64,000 nt of DNA, from contig NCEA01000001.1 of assembly GCA_002280515.1 (NCBI GenBank), positions 1 to 64,000 of the forward strand, written 5' to 3'. A model generated the notes under the pieces. The model worked only from the letters and a program-made list of their open reading frames with translations. It did not search any database and was not told the origin of the DNA. Made by a program: the position numbers and the translations under genes. Every line of letters begins with the position of its first letter. The stretch's first letter is position 1. The DNA comes from Rhodobacterales bacterium 32-67-9 (GTDB taxonomy: Bacteria > Pseudomonadota > Alphaproteobacteria > Rhodobacterales > Rhodobacteraceae). Below are positions 8,990 through 18,094 of this stretch, one piece after another.

Positions 8990-9885
8990 TGCGCACCCGG
9001 TTCGCGCCCTCGCCCACCGGACCGCTGCATCTTGGCCATGCCTATTCGGCGATCCTCGCCCATGACATGGCGCGCCGGGCCGGCGGAGAGTTCGTCCTGA
9101 GGATCGAGGACATCGACCAAAGTCGCGCACGCTCCGAATGGGAGGAGATGATCTACGACGATCTCGAATGGCTTGGACTCGGTTGGTCAAAGCCGGTGAT
9201 GCGCCAATCCGAACGGACGCCGGCCTATGCCGCCGCGCTCGACACGCTATGGGAAAGCGACTTGCTCTATCCGTGCAGTTGCACCCGCCGCGATATCGAA
9301 GCCGCGCTAAGCGCTCCGCAGGAAGGCGTGCCGGTTGAGGGGCCGGACGGCCCGGTCTATCCCGGGACCTGCCGCGGCCGACATTGCGGCGACCTGCCCT
9401 GTTCGATGTGCGAACGCCCGACAGACATCCACCTGCGACTGGATATGGGGACAACCCGAGGTTATCTTGACAAGCGCATCGACAAACCGGACGGCGGCAC
9501 CTTTGGTCTAGCCTTCCTTGAAACCGGCCCCGCGCACCGTGGCGACGTGTTCACATCGGCCGACGAGTATCTAACCCGAGTCGGCGATGTCGTCCTCGCC
9601 CGTCGCGACATGAGCACCTCCTACCACCTCTCCGTCGTGGTCGACGACGCGGCGCAAGGCATCACCCATGTCGTACGCGGCGAGGACCTGTTCGAGGCGA
9701 CCAGGATCCACGTCTTATTGCAGCGCCTCCTCGGCCTGCCGACGCCGGTCTACCATCACCACCGGCTGATCCGGGACGAGACCGGCAAGCGCCTCGCCAA
9801 ACGCGACGACGCGCGCGCGATCGCCAAATTCCGCGCCGACGGAGTAACACCGGCCGACATCCGGCGCATGGTGGGGCTGGCCTGA
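8989..9885 (+). CDS. gluQ: Glutamyl-Q tRNA(Asp) synthetase
   Basis: A 298-residue truncated class-I glutamyl-tRNA synthetase homologue that lacks the anticodon-binding domain. It attaches glutamate to queuosine-34 of tRNA(Asp). The nucleotide-binding motif is FAPSPTGPLHLGH at the N terminus (HLGH as the HIGH motif), and KRLAKRD serves as KMSKS. The zinc site of this subfamily is visible as CSC near residue 100 and a downstream C in YPGTCRG. The start was set at the ATG overlapping the trmFO stop, since [11 protein letters not shown] fits the family N terminus; a few codons upstream are also open. Confidence 0.94.
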   Translation: MRTRFAPSPTGPLHLGHAYSAILAHDMARRAGGEFVLRIEDIDQSRARSEWEEMIYDDLEWLGLGWSKPVMRQSERTPAYAAALDTLWESDLLYPCSCTRRDIEAALSAPQEGVPVEGPDGPVYPGTCRGRHCGDLPCSMCERPTDIHLRLDMGTTRGYLDKRIDKPDGGTFGLAFLETGPAHRGDVFTSADEYLTRVGDVVLARRDMSTSYHLSVVVDDAAQGITHVVRGEDLFEATRIHVLLQRLLGLPTPVYHHHRLIRDETGKRLAKRDDARAIAKFRADGVTPADIRRMVGLA

Positions 9886-9889
9886 AGGC

Positions 9890-10249
9890 TCACACCTCGG
9901 GCGCCATTATCTCAACCTCGCGCCCCTCCCGCACCGCCGTGTAGAAGCACGACCGCCGGTTGGTATGGCAAGCTGGCCCACTCTGTTCGACCCGGACCAG
10001 CAGGCAATCGCGGTCGCAATCCACCCGCATCTCGACCAGTTTCTGCACGTGGCCCGAGGTTTCGCCCTTGACCCAGAAGGCGGCCCGCGACCGCGACCAG
10101 TAGGTCACCCGCCCCGTCGCGAGCGTCCGCGCCACCGCCTCCCGGTTCATCCAGGCCAGCATCAGCACCTCGCCAGAGCCGTGATCCTGCGCGACCACCG
10201 GGATCAGGCCGCGGTCGTCATAGACCAATGTCGATGGGTCGAAGGGCAT
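9890..10249 (-). CDS. hisI: Phosphoribosyl-AMP cyclohydrolase
   Basis: A 119-residue enzyme for the third step of histidine synthesis, opening the adenine ring of PR-AMP. The metal-binding cysteines are in VDCDRDC and in [25 protein letters not shown] and [11 protein letters not shown] are family hallmarks. The start at 10249 (MPFDPSTL) follows AAGGTGGCGCC; the extra 29 codons upstream are not expected in the family. It is a stand-alone HisI without fused HisE, as usual in alphaproteobacteria, and converges with gluQ, four bases apart. Confidence 0.95.
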
Positions 10250-10313
10250 GGCGCCACCTTTCCAAGTCTCTTGTCGCGTCCTATCTAGGGGGGAACCTCC
10301 GACAGGAAAAGCC

Positions 10314-10757
10314 ATGAGCGACACCGATCTCATCAAGCTCTACTCACAGCGCATCCTCGCGCTGGCCGCCGATATCCCGCACATGCGACGGCTGGAGCAT
10401 CCGACCGCCACGGTGCGCAAACGCTCGCCGCTCTGCGGCTCGACGGTGACGGTGGATGTCAAGGTCGAGGGCGGCCGCATCACCGATTTCGGACAGGACG
10501 TGAAGGCCTGCGCGCTCGGACAGGCCTCGGCGGCGCTCTCCGGGGCGCAGATGATCGGCCGCACCCGGGCCGAGGTCGAACGCGCCCGCGACGAACTCCG
10601 CGCCATGCTGAAGGAGGGCGGGCCGGTCCCCTCGGCGCCCTTCACCGGCTACGAGGTGCTGGAACCGGCGCGCGACTACAAGAACCGCCACGCCTCGATC
10701 CTGCTCGCGCTCGAAGCGACGGCAGAGGCGCTGGCGGAGGCCGAAGCCGCCGCCTGA
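10314..10757 (+). CDS. Iron-sulfur cluster assembly scaffold protein, IscU/SufU/NifU-N family
   Basis: A 147-residue protein with the U-type scaffold fold: the first cysteine in [13 protein letters not shown], the second in [13 protein letters not shown], and the conserved aspartate in TDFGQDVKA. Only two of the usual three cysteines are obvious, and no cysteine is visible near the C terminus, where IscU has the third; this fits the divergent NifU-like subgroup found in alphaproteobacteria. The start at 10314 begins [12 protein letters not shown]; upstream codons would extend into the hisI promoter. No iscS or suf genes are adjacent. Confidence 0.85.
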
Positions 10758-10851
10758 GCTTCTTCTGTTCAAAAATACCTCGGGGGGCGTCCATTGGTGC
10801 GCCTTCGGTTCAAGAACCAATGGACGACGGGGCAGCACCCCCCGGCAGGTC
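10758..10851. repeat. Dispersed Rhodobacteraceae-type intergenic palindromic element, copy 1
   Basis: Directly after the scaffold gene comes CTTCTTCTGTTCAAAAATAC followed by CTCGGGGGG, then a perfect 10-bp inverted repeat GTCCATTGGT (10789-10798) / ACCAATGGAC (10816-10825), and a GGGGCAGCACCCCCC tail. The same plan (CTTC-TTCTT, AAATA, C/G run) recurs at 18101 and 36535 in this window. Such elements are very common in this family; they may help end or stabilise transcripts. Confidence 0.6.
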
Positions 10852-10884
10852 GGCGCGCGGAACGCGCGTCGAAACCCGAAACGC

Positions 10885-10922
10885 AAAAAAAACCGCCGCG
10901 CTCCGGTGTCGGAGGCGGCGGC
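10885..10922 (-). terminator. Intrinsic terminator on the minus strand
   Basis: Read on the minus strand, a GC-rich hairpin (CCGCCGCCTCCG / CGGAGCGCGGCGG with a 4-base loop) is followed by eight uninterrupted T residues. It is the clearest factor-independent terminator in the window and lies 100 bp downstream of the 40-residue gene at 11023-11145, supporting that this small gene is transcribed as its own unit. Confidence 0.8.
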
Positions 10923-11022
10923 AGGAAGCGATTTCCGTATTCCGGGCGCAAGGCTCGGGGAGAGCCGGGGACTGGGGACAGGCGCGAGACCGGCGGAGAA
11001 CCGCGAGGCAGTCGGGAAAGGA

Positions 11023-11145
11023 TCAGACGAGGCTGGGAAGGTGCAGCCCGACGATCAGCATGACGACGAGAGAGGCAAGTCCGGCCATGTCCTGGGCAAG
11101 GGTGCCCCGCGCCCGGAGCAGCACTGATTTCAGATCGGTTTTCAT
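11023..11145 (-). CDS. 40-residue single-pass membrane peptide, candidate SOS-regulated micropeptide
   Basis: A short frame starting with MKTDLKSVLLRARGTLAQD and continuing into a hydrophobic helix AGLASLVVMLIVGLHLP, ending SLV. The N-terminal half is basic and amphipathic, the C-terminal half would span the inner membrane. A good ribosome site (AGAGGG, 6 bases before ATG) precedes it. Upstream is a perfect alphaproteobacterial LexA-type box (11210-11224); downstream is a strong intrinsic terminator. This organisation matches known SOS-induced membrane micropeptides such as SidA of Caulobacter or TisB of E. coli, but I see no sequence identity with either. It follows recG by 102 bp on the same strand. 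Function is inferred only from context. Confidence 0.65.
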   Translation of the reverse strand: MKTDLKSVLLRARGTLAQDMAGLASLVVMLIVGLHLPSLV

Positions 11146-11209
11146 CGGGAACCCTCTTCAGTTTCGCCTTGGTTGCCTATTTGTTCTCATAATCTCGCCG
11201 CCCTGTAAA

Positions 11210-11234
11210 GAACTTTTTAAGAACATTAGTGAAC
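11210..11234 (-). promoter_or_regulatory. LexA-type SOS box GTTC-N7-GTTC with a third GTTC
   Basis: On the minus strand the sequence reads GTTC-TTAAAAA-GTTC (11224 to 11210), an exact match to the direct-repeat LexA operator known from Rhodobacter and other alphaproteobacteria. A third GTTC lies 6 bp further upstream (11234-11231). The box is centred about 72 bp before the ATG of the 40-residue gene and lies just after the recG stop codon, so the small gene is the only plausible target on that side. Confidence 0.65.
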
Positions 11235-11247
11235 GAAAGAAGATTCT

Positions 11248-15656
<4,409 letters not shown>

Positions 15657-15709
15657 TTAGGGCGCGCGTCCGGAGAGGTCCAGTCTTCGCGTAGCTGCGA
15701 AATCCGGAA

Positions 15710-15734
15710 CCGCGCCCGCCCCCCGGGGGCGCGG
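15710..15734 (-). terminator. GC-rich hairpin after ctrA
   Basis: CCGCGCCC and GGGCGCGG form an 8-bp stem beginning 9 bases past the ctrA stop codon. No T-run follows. It separates ctrA from ligA and probably ends or protects the ctrA message. Confidence 0.4.
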
Positions 15735-15742
15735 GCAGTTAA

Positions 15743-16456
15743 TCAGGCGCCCACGGCGATCTTGCGCGGTTCGCTCGACGCGCTCGGCTCGCGCAGGACG
15801 TAGCCGCGCCCCCAGACCGTTTCGATGTAATTGTCGCCGCCGGTCGCTTCGGACAGCTTCTTCCTGAGCTTGCAGATGAAAACGTCGATGATCTTCAGCT
15901 CCGGTTCGTCCATGCCGCCGTAAAGATGGTTGAGGAACATCTCCTTGGTCAGCGTGGTCCCCTTGCGCAACGACAGAAGCTCCAGCATCTGGTATTCCTT
16001 GCCGGTCAGATGCACCGGCGTGCCCCCGACATCGACGGTCTTGGCGTCGAGGTTGACGTCGATCTTGCCGGTCCGGATCACCGACTGCGCATGCCCCTTG
16101 GAACGGCGGATGATCGCGTGGATGCGCGCCACCAGCTCCTCGCGGTGGAAAGGCTTGGTCATGTAATCGTCCGCGCCGAAGCCGAAGCCGCGGATCTTGT
16201 TCTCGGTATCGTCGGCGCCGGTGAGGATGAGGATCGGCGTATCGACCTTCGCGAGGCGAAGCTGGCGCAGCACCTCATGCCCGTTCATGTCCGGCAGGTT
16301 GAGGTCGAGAAGGATCAGATCGTAGTCATAGAGCTTCGCCAGGTCGATGCCTTCCTCCCCGAGATCGGTGCAATAGACATTGAGATTGGCATGAGTCAGC
16401 ATCAACTCGATGCTGCGGGACGTGGTGGGGTCGTCCTCTACCAACAGGATTCTCAT
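15743..16456 (-). CDS. ctrA: Cell-cycle response regulator CtrA
   Basis: A 237-residue OmpR-type regulator. The receiver domain has acidic EDD at the N terminus and the phosphoacceptor Asp51 in [13 protein letters not shown]. The DNA-binding domain contains the nearly invariant CtrA block [20 protein letters not shown] and [18 protein letters not shown]. In Caulobacter CtrA controls replication and division; in Rhodobacteraceae it is mainly tied to motility, gene transfer agent and other phase functions. The protein ends in -VGA rather than the AA that marks Caulobacter CtrA for ClpXP. A near-consensus CtrA site stands 53 bp upstream of the ATG, and sciP lies immediately upstream on the same strand. 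Confidence 0.97.
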
Positions 16457-16508
16457 CAGGCGCTCTCCGCATTAATCCCTCGATCACCGGCACACTGGAA
16501 CAGAATGG

Positions 16509-16523
16509 TTAATCACAAGTTAC
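16509..16523. promoter_or_regulatory. Near-consensus CtrA binding site upstream of ctrA
   Basis: TTAA-TCACAAG-TTAC matches TTAA-N7-TTAA with one mismatch in the second half and the correct 7-bp spacing. It lies 53-67 bp before the ctrA start, the position expected for autoregulation, in the 94-bp gap between sciP and ctrA. Confidence 0.55.
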
Positions 16524-16550
16524 CGTAGCGTCAGGAACGTCACGATCAAC

Positions 16551-16829
16551 CTAAAGTTGCCGGAATTTCTGGATTGCCGTGACTTTCAGCCCCTTTTCGC
16601 CGTGCTTTTCGACCGCGCCACGCCAGAGGTCGAACTCCTCCTCGCTGAGCGCGTAGCGGTCGAGCGCCTCGCGCAGCGGCAAAAGCCCGAAGGCCACCGC
16701 CCTGACCACCCGCGCCTTGCGGCTCGCCACCCAGCGGCACGTCTCGGCCGGCGGCAGGTCCGCCCGTGTCATGATCGTCCCGTCCGGCAGCGTAATGGCC
16801 CTTGGCCCGTCGATTTTTTTCAGAAACAT
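16551..16829 (-). CDS. sciP: CtrA inhibitor SciP (DUF1153)
   Basis: A 92-residue protein with the SciP pattern: TLPDGTIMTRADLPPAETCR, then RWVASRKARVV, ALDRYALSEEEFDLW and a C-terminal KVTAIQKFRQ. SciP binds CtrA at promoters in Caulobacter and blocks recruitment of RNA polymerase; in Rhodobacteraceae it is known to modulate CtrA-dependent genes. The start at 16829 is preceded by GGGGTGAACC. It is transcribed toward ctrA, 94 bp away, so both could be expressed together. The divergent region to mnmA contains a TAGGA-TTT-TCCTA dyad (16909-16921). Confidence 0.93.
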   Translation of the reverse strand: MFLKKIDGPRAITLPDGTIMTRADLPPAETCRWVASRKARVVRAVAFGLLPLREALDRYALSEEEFDLWRGAVEKHGEKGLKVTAIQKFRQL

Positions 16830-16951
16830 GGTTCACCCCGTGTCTTCGCCCGTGGAAAATCTGGACCTGCGGACTTAAGGAGGGGTGAAACGGCGGGTTG
16901 TGAGTAGATAGGATTTTCCTATATTCCATTCGATCTTCCCCGGAGTGCGAC

Positions 16952-18094
16952 ATGGCGCTGGACCACCAAGGATTGAATTCGCTCGGCCTGCCGAAGGCCC
17001 CGGCCGAAACGCGGGTCGTCGTGGCGATGTCGGGTGGCGTCGACAGCTCGGTCGTGGCGGCGATGCTGAAGGACGAAGGCTATGACGTCATCGGCGTCAC
17101 CTTGCAGCTTTACGACCACGGTGCAGCCTTGGCCAAGAAGGGCGCCTGCTGCGCCGGCCAGGACATCCACGACGCCCGCCGTGTGGCCGAGGCGATGGGC
17201 TTTCCGCATTACGTCCTCGATTACGAGAACATGTTCCGCGAGGCGGTGATCGAGGAATTCGCCGACGCCTACCTTGCCGGCGCGACGCCGGTCCCCTGCA
17301 TCCGCTGCAACGAGAGGGTGAAGTTCAAGGACCTGCTCGCGACGGCAAAGGACCTCGAAGCCGACTGCATGGCGACCGGGCACTACATCCGGCGCGTCGT
17401 CGGTCCGGGCGGGCCGGAACTGCATTCCGCCGCCGATCCGAACCGCGACCAGTCGTATTTCCTCTTCTCGACGACGCCCGAACAGCTCGCCTTCCTGCGC
17501 TTCCCGCTCGGGCATCTCGCCTCCAAGGCCGAGACGCGGGCGCTCGCGGCCAGGTACGGGCTTTCCGTCGCCGACAAGCCCGACAGCCAGGACATCTGCT
17601 TCGTGCCGAACGGCAACTATGCCAGCGTGATCGAGAAGCTGCGCCCCGGCGCGGCCGACCCCGGCGAGATCGTCGACATGGAGGGCCGCGTCCTCGGCAG
17701 CCACGGCGGCGTCATCCACTACACGATCGGCCAGCGCCGCGGCCTCGGCATCGGCGGGCTCGAGGATCCGCTCTACGTGGTCAAGCTCGACCCCGCCACG
17801 CGCCGCGTCGTCGTCGGCCCGAAAGAGGCGCTCTCGACCCGCACGGTGCCGGTGCGCGAGATCAACTGGCTCGGCGACGGCACCTTCGACGCGGTCGCCG
17901 AACGGCCGGCCCTTGTCCGCATCCGCTCCACGCGGCCGCCACGCCCGGCGGTGATCCGGCCCCTGTCGGCGACAACGGCTGAGGTGGAACTCCTCGACCC
18001 CGAGGAAGGCGTCAGTCCCGGCCAGGCCTGCGTCTTCTATGCGCCGGAAGGCAGCCGCATCCTCGGCGGCGGCTGGATCTGGCGAGGCCACTGA
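16952..18094 (+). CDS. mnmA: tRNA-specific 2-thiouridylase
   Basis: A 380-residue enzyme that thiolates uridine-34 of Lys, Glu and Gln tRNAs. The PP-loop is [20 protein letters not shown], and the two catalytic cysteines are in [14 protein letters not shown] and [11 protein letters not shown]. The target-recognition and beta-barrel domains follow, with [14 protein letters not shown]. It starts 122 bp from the divergent sciP gene behind CGGAGTGCGAC. The N terminus has a short extra leader before the PP-loop, common in alphaproteobacteria. Confidence 0.97.

Follow-up and report, generated by a model that had tools for sequence, protein, structure and literature searches.

Analysis of the first 64,000 nt of contig NCEA01000001.1 of Rhodobacterales bacterium 32-67-9 (hereafter the window) uncovered a minus-strand gene beside recG that encodes a predicted membrane micropeptide of 40 amino acids (aa). 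Comparisons across genomes showed that this gene is widely kept in the bacterial family of the organism, with a promoter bearing the organism's putative LexA motif and with its own terminator. We modestly favour the reading that it is an SOS division brake, which would act in the manner of SidA and perhaps carries a 3′ RNA resembling DinR. A preliminary description of this locus had proposed an SOS-controlled membrane micropeptide, an interpretation that is supported. It had named a GTTC-N7-GTTC box with a third GTTC 6 nt off, a 40-codon frame with a ribosome site, one hydrophobic helix and an intrinsic terminator with eight T residues; the sequence elements lie exactly where they were placed. 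The preliminary description was correct yet understated, since a second, inverted box-like element and a conserved RNA in the 3′ untranslated region (UTR) were absent from it.

A single GTTC-N7-GTTC is not unusual on its own (four in the window versus 1.6 expected, with 10 of 100 shuffles reaching four), and conservation was therefore used as the test. The loci compared were picked by their peptide, chiefly among the better-scoring entries for 251 matching genomes, and 88 of 102 were retained after removal of 13 chosen by promoter (L110–L122) and one duplicate (L077). An exact GTTC-N7-GTTC is found within 160 nt upstream of the frame in all 88 loci, 69–115 nt before the start, and in one of 2,886 background windows of the same loci, which places the box above chance and rules out a fortuitous match. 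In 80 of the 88 loci the box is preceded by an additional GTTC, 10 or 11 nt before it. Downstream of the box, GAGAAC occurs in 82 (at a spacing of 15 in 80 and of 16 in two), GAAC-N7-CAAC in 74 with an exact GAAC-N7-GAAC in L015, and a Shine-Dalgarno-like word, by a loose pattern, in 85.

The first 30 loci yielded a composite promoter pattern, which was detected in 180 of 295 family genomes, mostly once, and its reversed-pattern control gave zero matches. Among 80 of 118 stretches fetched with a promoter pattern from named genomes, 78 encode the peptide downstream, the exceptions being L148, which is cut by the locus end, and L200, a divergent Paracoccus form; at least seven of the 80 share an identical peptide with earlier loci, and the sets thus overlap. 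We take the labels of these 80 to be Rhodobacteraceae genus names or unresolved Rhodobacteraceae, Rhodobacterales or Alphaproteobacteria designations.

Elsewhere in the same genome, lexA is preceded by a triple GAAC-N7-GAAC-N7-GAAC array and recA by the same box, and the motif also precedes two further genes that we take to be uvrA and imuA. Given these occurrences, GTTC-N7-GTTC is very probably the LexA box, in agreement with the preliminary description. Binding of the array by a different regulator might be suggested by its three GTTC in 10–11 nt steps and its second element, which are more elaborate than a plain LexA box, but the triple array at lexA and the shared box at recA make such a regulator highly improbable. 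Two further A/T-rich GTTC-N7-GTTC sites (L032 and L033) were observed in this genome, one at the start of or inside a presumably dnaE2-like frame and one near what we take to be an efflux-type gene. A LexA study of D. shibae names predicted targets, and recG is absent from its main text (PMC6473078).

A search with the single peptide gave matches in 206 of the 295 genomes of the taxonomic family, and a 30-row profile (E ≤ 0.001) gave matches in 251, one per genome. The peptide matches span 250 of the 294 genera sampled, and there are no stop codons among the profile matches listed. Of 385 genomes of the class, ten match at E ≤ 0.01; the five strong ones all belong to this family (Rhodobacteraceae in a broad sense), and a wider distribution was rejected because the five outside it are weak (E 0.002–0.006) and sit inside long frames. 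No convincing match for the peptide was obtained in Pfam, NCBIfam (four stray weak families only), PHROGs (two stray weak families, best E 0.0042) or PDB. Plasmids and viral contigs yielded no confirmed match by the searches used; a viral scan with one short pattern matched 27 stretches, none of them confirmed, and an origin as a phage or plasmid gene was set aside. Neither the gene nor its RNA is described in any title or abstract beginning listed by searches of open-licence papers on LexA, small SOS proteins, small RNAs (sRNAs) and this clade, and across these searches the word "undescribed" in the preliminary description holds.

The peptides are mostly 39–42 aa long, and conservation among 166 distinct sequences reaches 99% at D19, G22 and L34, 96% at L26 and P37, 90% at L30 and 88% at T15. 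Identity at codon positions 1, 2 and 3 is 0.556, 0.699 and 0.390, respectively. For the window peptide and that of the other genome of the genus, the proportions of synonymous and nonsynonymous differences (pS and pN) are 0.584 and 0.224, and their means over 13,689 pairs are 0.672 and 0.373; nine truncated, divergent or duplicate loci were excluded from this set and from the hydrophobicity set below. The substitution pattern shows a reading frame under purifying selection, and the frame's conservation, on which the preliminary description had let its reading hinge, is thus seen both in the 251 genomes and in a mean pN below pS.

Three Paracoccus loci (L133, L183 and L200) encode a short peptide form of 31–32 aa, with D-x-x-G kept in two of the three and LWLPAI in all three. 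They keep the promoter and a terminator, and their 3′ UTRs are divergent (19–26 bits with the RNA model R1 described below). Three genomes have the composite promoter and no profile match: in L110 and L111 the promoter is nonetheless followed by a short hydrophobic frame (12.6 and 8.9 bits), and the third is G077.

AlphaFold2 predicts one helix spanning residues 2–39 (mean predicted local distance difference test score, 83), and a 19-mer with mean hydrophobicity of at least 1.6 is present in 164 of 165 peptides. The conserved residues fall on one face of this helix, with a periodic power at 90–110 degrees that is reached by 178 of 5,000 shuffles. A small hydrophobic single helix, a LexA box and a structured mRNA would also suit an SOS membrane toxin that depolarises the membrane and induces dormancy with no divisome contact. 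TisB is a LexA-controlled small hydrophobic peptide of this kind. DinQ is likewise small, hydrophobic and LexA-controlled (PMC3567139). Unlike both, the present peptide has one copy per genome, mostly beside recG (97 of 101 loci have a same-strand recG match upstream), and it is spread over most of the genera sampled. No antisense antitoxin is known for it, though no search aimed at one was made. Toxin–antitoxin loci are typically patchy, mobile or multicopy, and the searches of plasmids and viral contigs, as stated, confirmed no match. In addition, conserved D, G, L and P residues on a single helix face suggest a specific partner, and we consider a toxin unlikely.

Folding supports the terminator (−29.3 kcal/mol including flanks, z −5.35, with none of 200 shuffles reaching this stability), which a simple consensus scan of positions 9500–12500 missed. 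A terminator-like site is located 100–269 nt past the stop codon in 84 of the 88 loci, compared with 2 of 174 background windows. A terminator was located in 166 of 180 loci, with 160 distinct 3′ UTRs. The word CTGCCTG is contained in 128 of these 160 and in 2 of 160 reversed sequences, and CTGTCCC in 117 versus 22 reversed sequences.

Both motifs are present in 108 sequences, 32 of which were aligned by sequence only (alignment A2). RNAalifold on A2 returned the terminator hairpin P3 alone; two further elements, an outer stem P1 with a hairpin P2 inside it, both preceding P3, were proposed by eye and afterwards tested. CUGCCUG lies outside these stems except for its last G. In A2, 85.8% of cells pair (77.8% in shuffles, 32–44% with slid partners) and 86 cells are changed on both sides, compared with 31.7 in shuffles. 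Because the structure was derived from A2, it was retested on A3, which comprises 63 of 66 further sequences outside A2 (the Paracoccus loci L133, L183 and L200 being excluded) plus L069 to transfer the structure. Here 80.3% of cells pair (69.8% in shuffles, 36–46% with slid partners), with 211 two-sided changes versus 83.8 in shuffles. Neither the paired share nor the two-sided changes are reached by any of 500 shuffles, and the number of pairs with a two-sided change by one of 500, although these statistics ignore kinship and the A3 set shares ancestry with the A2 set. The alignment of P2 in A3 is poor (47% paired), and P2 therefore rests on A2 and on an alignment-free partner test outside A2, in which it averages 4.97 bp compared with at most 4.02 bp for swapped partners (90/128 usable); the corresponding values for P1 are 7.40 bp and at most 6.61 bp (106/128 usable). 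Together these comparisons show that the 3′ UTR forms a conserved RNA structure that runs into a predicted terminator and is kept by compensatory changes, in the derivation set as well as in the 63 further sequences, a feature that is new here.

A covariance model of A2 (R1) finds the RNA of the window, which lies outside the training set (Table 1). Compared with Rfam at E up to 1, this part of the window gave a single match, which fell far short of its gathering score, and eight loci gave none over the gathering score. Applied to 190 class genomes, R1 returned 15 matches, of which three strong ones belong to the same family; the other 12, all outside it, score at most 32.5 bits, and a wider distribution of the RNA was likewise rejected. 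The best of the 12 (L251, 32.5 bits) is a terminator region after a recA-like frame in a distant member of the class and probably reflects convergence of GC-rich terminators. Papers on sRNAs of Ruegeria pomeroyi and Paracoccus denitrificans leave recG unmentioned in their main texts.

Several described systems provide a frame for these features. SidA of Caulobacter crescentus is a 29-aa inner-membrane SOS protein that interacts with FtsW (PMC4211646). Like SidA, the present gene encodes a tiny predicted membrane peptide with one helix and a putative LexA box upstream; unlike SidA, its product is mostly 39–42 aa with a conserved face of its own, and its mRNA includes a conserved 3′ RNA. No credible profile match was obtained outside the family in the 385 class genomes; SidA itself was not aligned, and no homology is claimed. 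YneA, SosA and ChiZ are membrane-bound SOS division inhibitors that act late, and the contact of the helix with FtsW has been shown for YneA and modelled only for SosA and ChiZ (PMC13396833). YneA and ChiZ carry a LysM domain and SosA an extended helix (PMC13396833), whereas the peptide described here ends right after its helix. The sRNA DinR of Klebsiella is the 3′ end of the LexA-controlled dinI mRNA; it is complementary to the ribosome site of ftsZ and represses that gene there (PMC10907235). The present RNA is arranged in the same way: it closes, with a predicted intrinsic terminator, an mRNA whose promoter bears a putative LexA box. It may also pair with the ftsZ ribosome site, through a match defined post hoc (see below). 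In contrast to DinR, which is called Klebsiella-specific and is hosted by the DinI frame (PMC10907235), it is family-wide and its host frame encodes a membrane micropeptide.

In the mechanism that we propose, LexA would hold the promoter off through the GTTC box, perhaps also through the GAAC-N7-CAAC element over the −10 region, and the promoter would be released upon DNA damage by RecA-driven cleavage of LexA. The peptide would then take its place in the inner membrane as a single helix whose conserved face (T15, D19, G22, L26, L30, L34, P37) contacts a partner helix, most likely within the late division complex (FtsW/FtsI/FtsN). Septum synthesis would be paused, as it is by SidA in Caulobacter. 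The 3′-UTR RNA may in addition, through UCUGCCUG, cover the ftsZ ribosome site and lower FtsZ synthesis in the manner of DinR. The peptide part of this proposal is more secure than the RNA part.

A number of observations weigh against this proposal, which draws on sequence and prediction. At the promoter, the −10 hexamer is poor and a consensus scan of positions 9500–12500 found no sigma-70-type promoter. The profile has no match in 44 of the 295 family genomes. The peptide is still present in 8 of 13 genomes with no lexA match, mostly fragmented assemblies compared by hand; incomplete assemblies confound this comparison of co-occurrence, which is uninformative. Among the 53 sequence pairs of the least diverged class, the pN/pS ratio is 0.83 and 37 have a pN smaller than their pS. 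The N-terminal charge bias is weak (93 of 165 peptides), which leaves the membrane topology uncertain. The helix of YneA alone docks on FtsW yet does not block division (PMC13396833), so that a helix contact may not suffice. On the side of the RNA, the counterevidence comes from ftsZ, which was chosen as the single gene for examination, in 12 genomes, because DinR represses it at the ribosome site (PMC10907235). The preset exact antisense word CAGGCAG is present in none of the 12 ftsZ regions, and the G-U-tolerant word used below was defined post hoc, after these regions had been seen, the gene alone being preset. RNA and ftsZ from one genome pair no better than those from different genomes (509 of 5,000 permutations). 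The 11-nt antisense word GGGACAGGCAG is not enriched in eight genomes (32 matches, some of them the RNA's own locus, versus 41 for the control), and whole-region RNA–ftsZ duplexes are weak (mean z −0.77, with one of 12 starts misplaced).

What the ftsZ regions do contain is CAGGCGG at the ribosome site, which pairs with CUGCCUG of the RNA through one G-U pair. The longer word CAGGCGGA, antisense to UCUGCCUG, is found at this site in all 11 genomes in which the ftsZ start was located, out of 12; given their shared descent, these 11 sites amount to roughly one observation. Of the 160 UTRs, 91 contain TCTGCCTG. Background gene starts, taken from 80 related loci plus the window and thus not independent, match the 7-nt word in 13 of 287 cases with G-U pairs and in 4 of 287 as strict CAGGC[AG]G; the 8-nt word occurs in 8 of 287 and 1 of 287, respectively. 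Other words were also seen in the 12 regions (GGGACAG in one, GGACAG in six). The RNA of the window has CTGCCTC instead, but its CGCCUGUC perfectly matches GACAGGCG at its own ftsZ site. The best contiguous match between RNA and ftsZ overlaps CAGGCGG in 9 of the 11 genomes, and in the other genome of the genus it is the pairing of CGCCTGTC with GACAGGCG; it lies elsewhere in two, including the window genome, where the top-scoring match is a different one just upstream. In L195, CAGGCGG stands just upstream of the candidate GTG start of a gene that we take to be gyrA-like, another possible antisense target of the RNA.

We see an even chance that the 3′-UTR structure merely protects the mRNA or aids termination, with no target in trans and a coincidental match to ftsZ. 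The short, post hoc seed, the failure of the preset one and the lack of within-genome preference or antisense enrichment all fit such a role in cis; it is at odds with the frequency of CUGCCUG in true as opposed to reversed UTRs, at a position mostly outside the stems where structure alone does not need it, and with the presence of CAGGCGGA at every located ftsZ start versus a single strict match in the background. A two-tier division checkpoint, in which the peptide would block the late divisome and the 3′-UTR RNA would shut off ftsZ translation, making the gene the family's counterpart of SulA, is graded as tentative and rather doubtful, because the preset exact seed failed on ftsZ and the match is post hoc.

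Small SOS membrane proteins can have varied partners, and this peptide could modulate another membrane protein during the SOS response, such as a protease, a transporter, a respiratory complex or one involved in gene-transfer-agent release, with no role in division. We hold this to be improbable to about the same degree as a toxin, as there is no evidence for any particular alternative and no SulA was found over the Pfam cut-off in 149 genomes (one match fell below it), which leaves a division inhibitor to be found. A SidA-like brake on division is the reading that we retain.

Table 1 Features of the micropeptide locus in the window.
Feature	Position	Strand	Basis
LexA box GTTCTTAAAAAGTTC, GTTC-N7-GTTC (very probable)	11210..11224	minus	exact sequence read
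Third GTTC, 6 nt upstream of the LexA box	11231..11234	minus	sequence read
TTTACA, −35-like	11204..11209	minus	TTTAC directly after box in 82/88 loci
GAAC-N7-CAAC, possible second LexA box (inverted, half-degenerate), over the −10/+1 region	11172..11186	minus	
Ribosome-site-like GAAGAGGG	11152..11159	minus	sequence read
Gene for 40-aa predicted single-helix membrane micropeptide, ATG start, stop codon included	11023..11145	minus	
Conserved structured 3′-UTR RNA	10885..11019	minus	model R1 match, 57.3 bits, E 7e-13
CTGCCTC, the window's version of RNA element CUGCCUG	11005..11011	minus	sequence read
RNA word CGCCTGTC, complementary over all 8 nt to GACAGGCG at this genome's ftsZ ribosome site	10977..10984	minus	
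Intrinsic terminator, 13-bp stem with one bulge, then T8	10885..10922	minus	folding
recG, directly upstream, same strand	11248..13335	minus	name from the preliminary description

The recG match is missing from four loci. In L092 and L093, box and peptide are kept with no recG match within the locus, which rules out the box as recG's own and indicates that it goes with the peptide gene; L110 and L124 are likewise devoid of a recG match, and L124 stands at a contig start. The convergent gene downstream has a homologue in 76 of the 101 loci. Positions 9890–18094 of the window place cell-cycle and DNA genes side by side around the peptide; we take the block to read hisI, an iron-sulfur scaffold-like gene, recG, ligA, ctrA, a DUF1153/SciP-like gene and mnmA.

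The peptide and the RNA of this locus each represent a conserved family that has no match in the libraries searched. How DNA damage halts division in Rhodobacter, Paracoccus and the marine roseobacters has, to our knowledge, no settled answer, and the gene provides a single small, family-wide candidate for this function. Should the RNA half of the proposal be true, a protein brake and an RNA brake would be joined in one message, and under the two-tier reading the gene would be the family's counterpart of SulA. As judged from comparative sequence data, this tiny gene probably helps to stop cell division during DNA repair.
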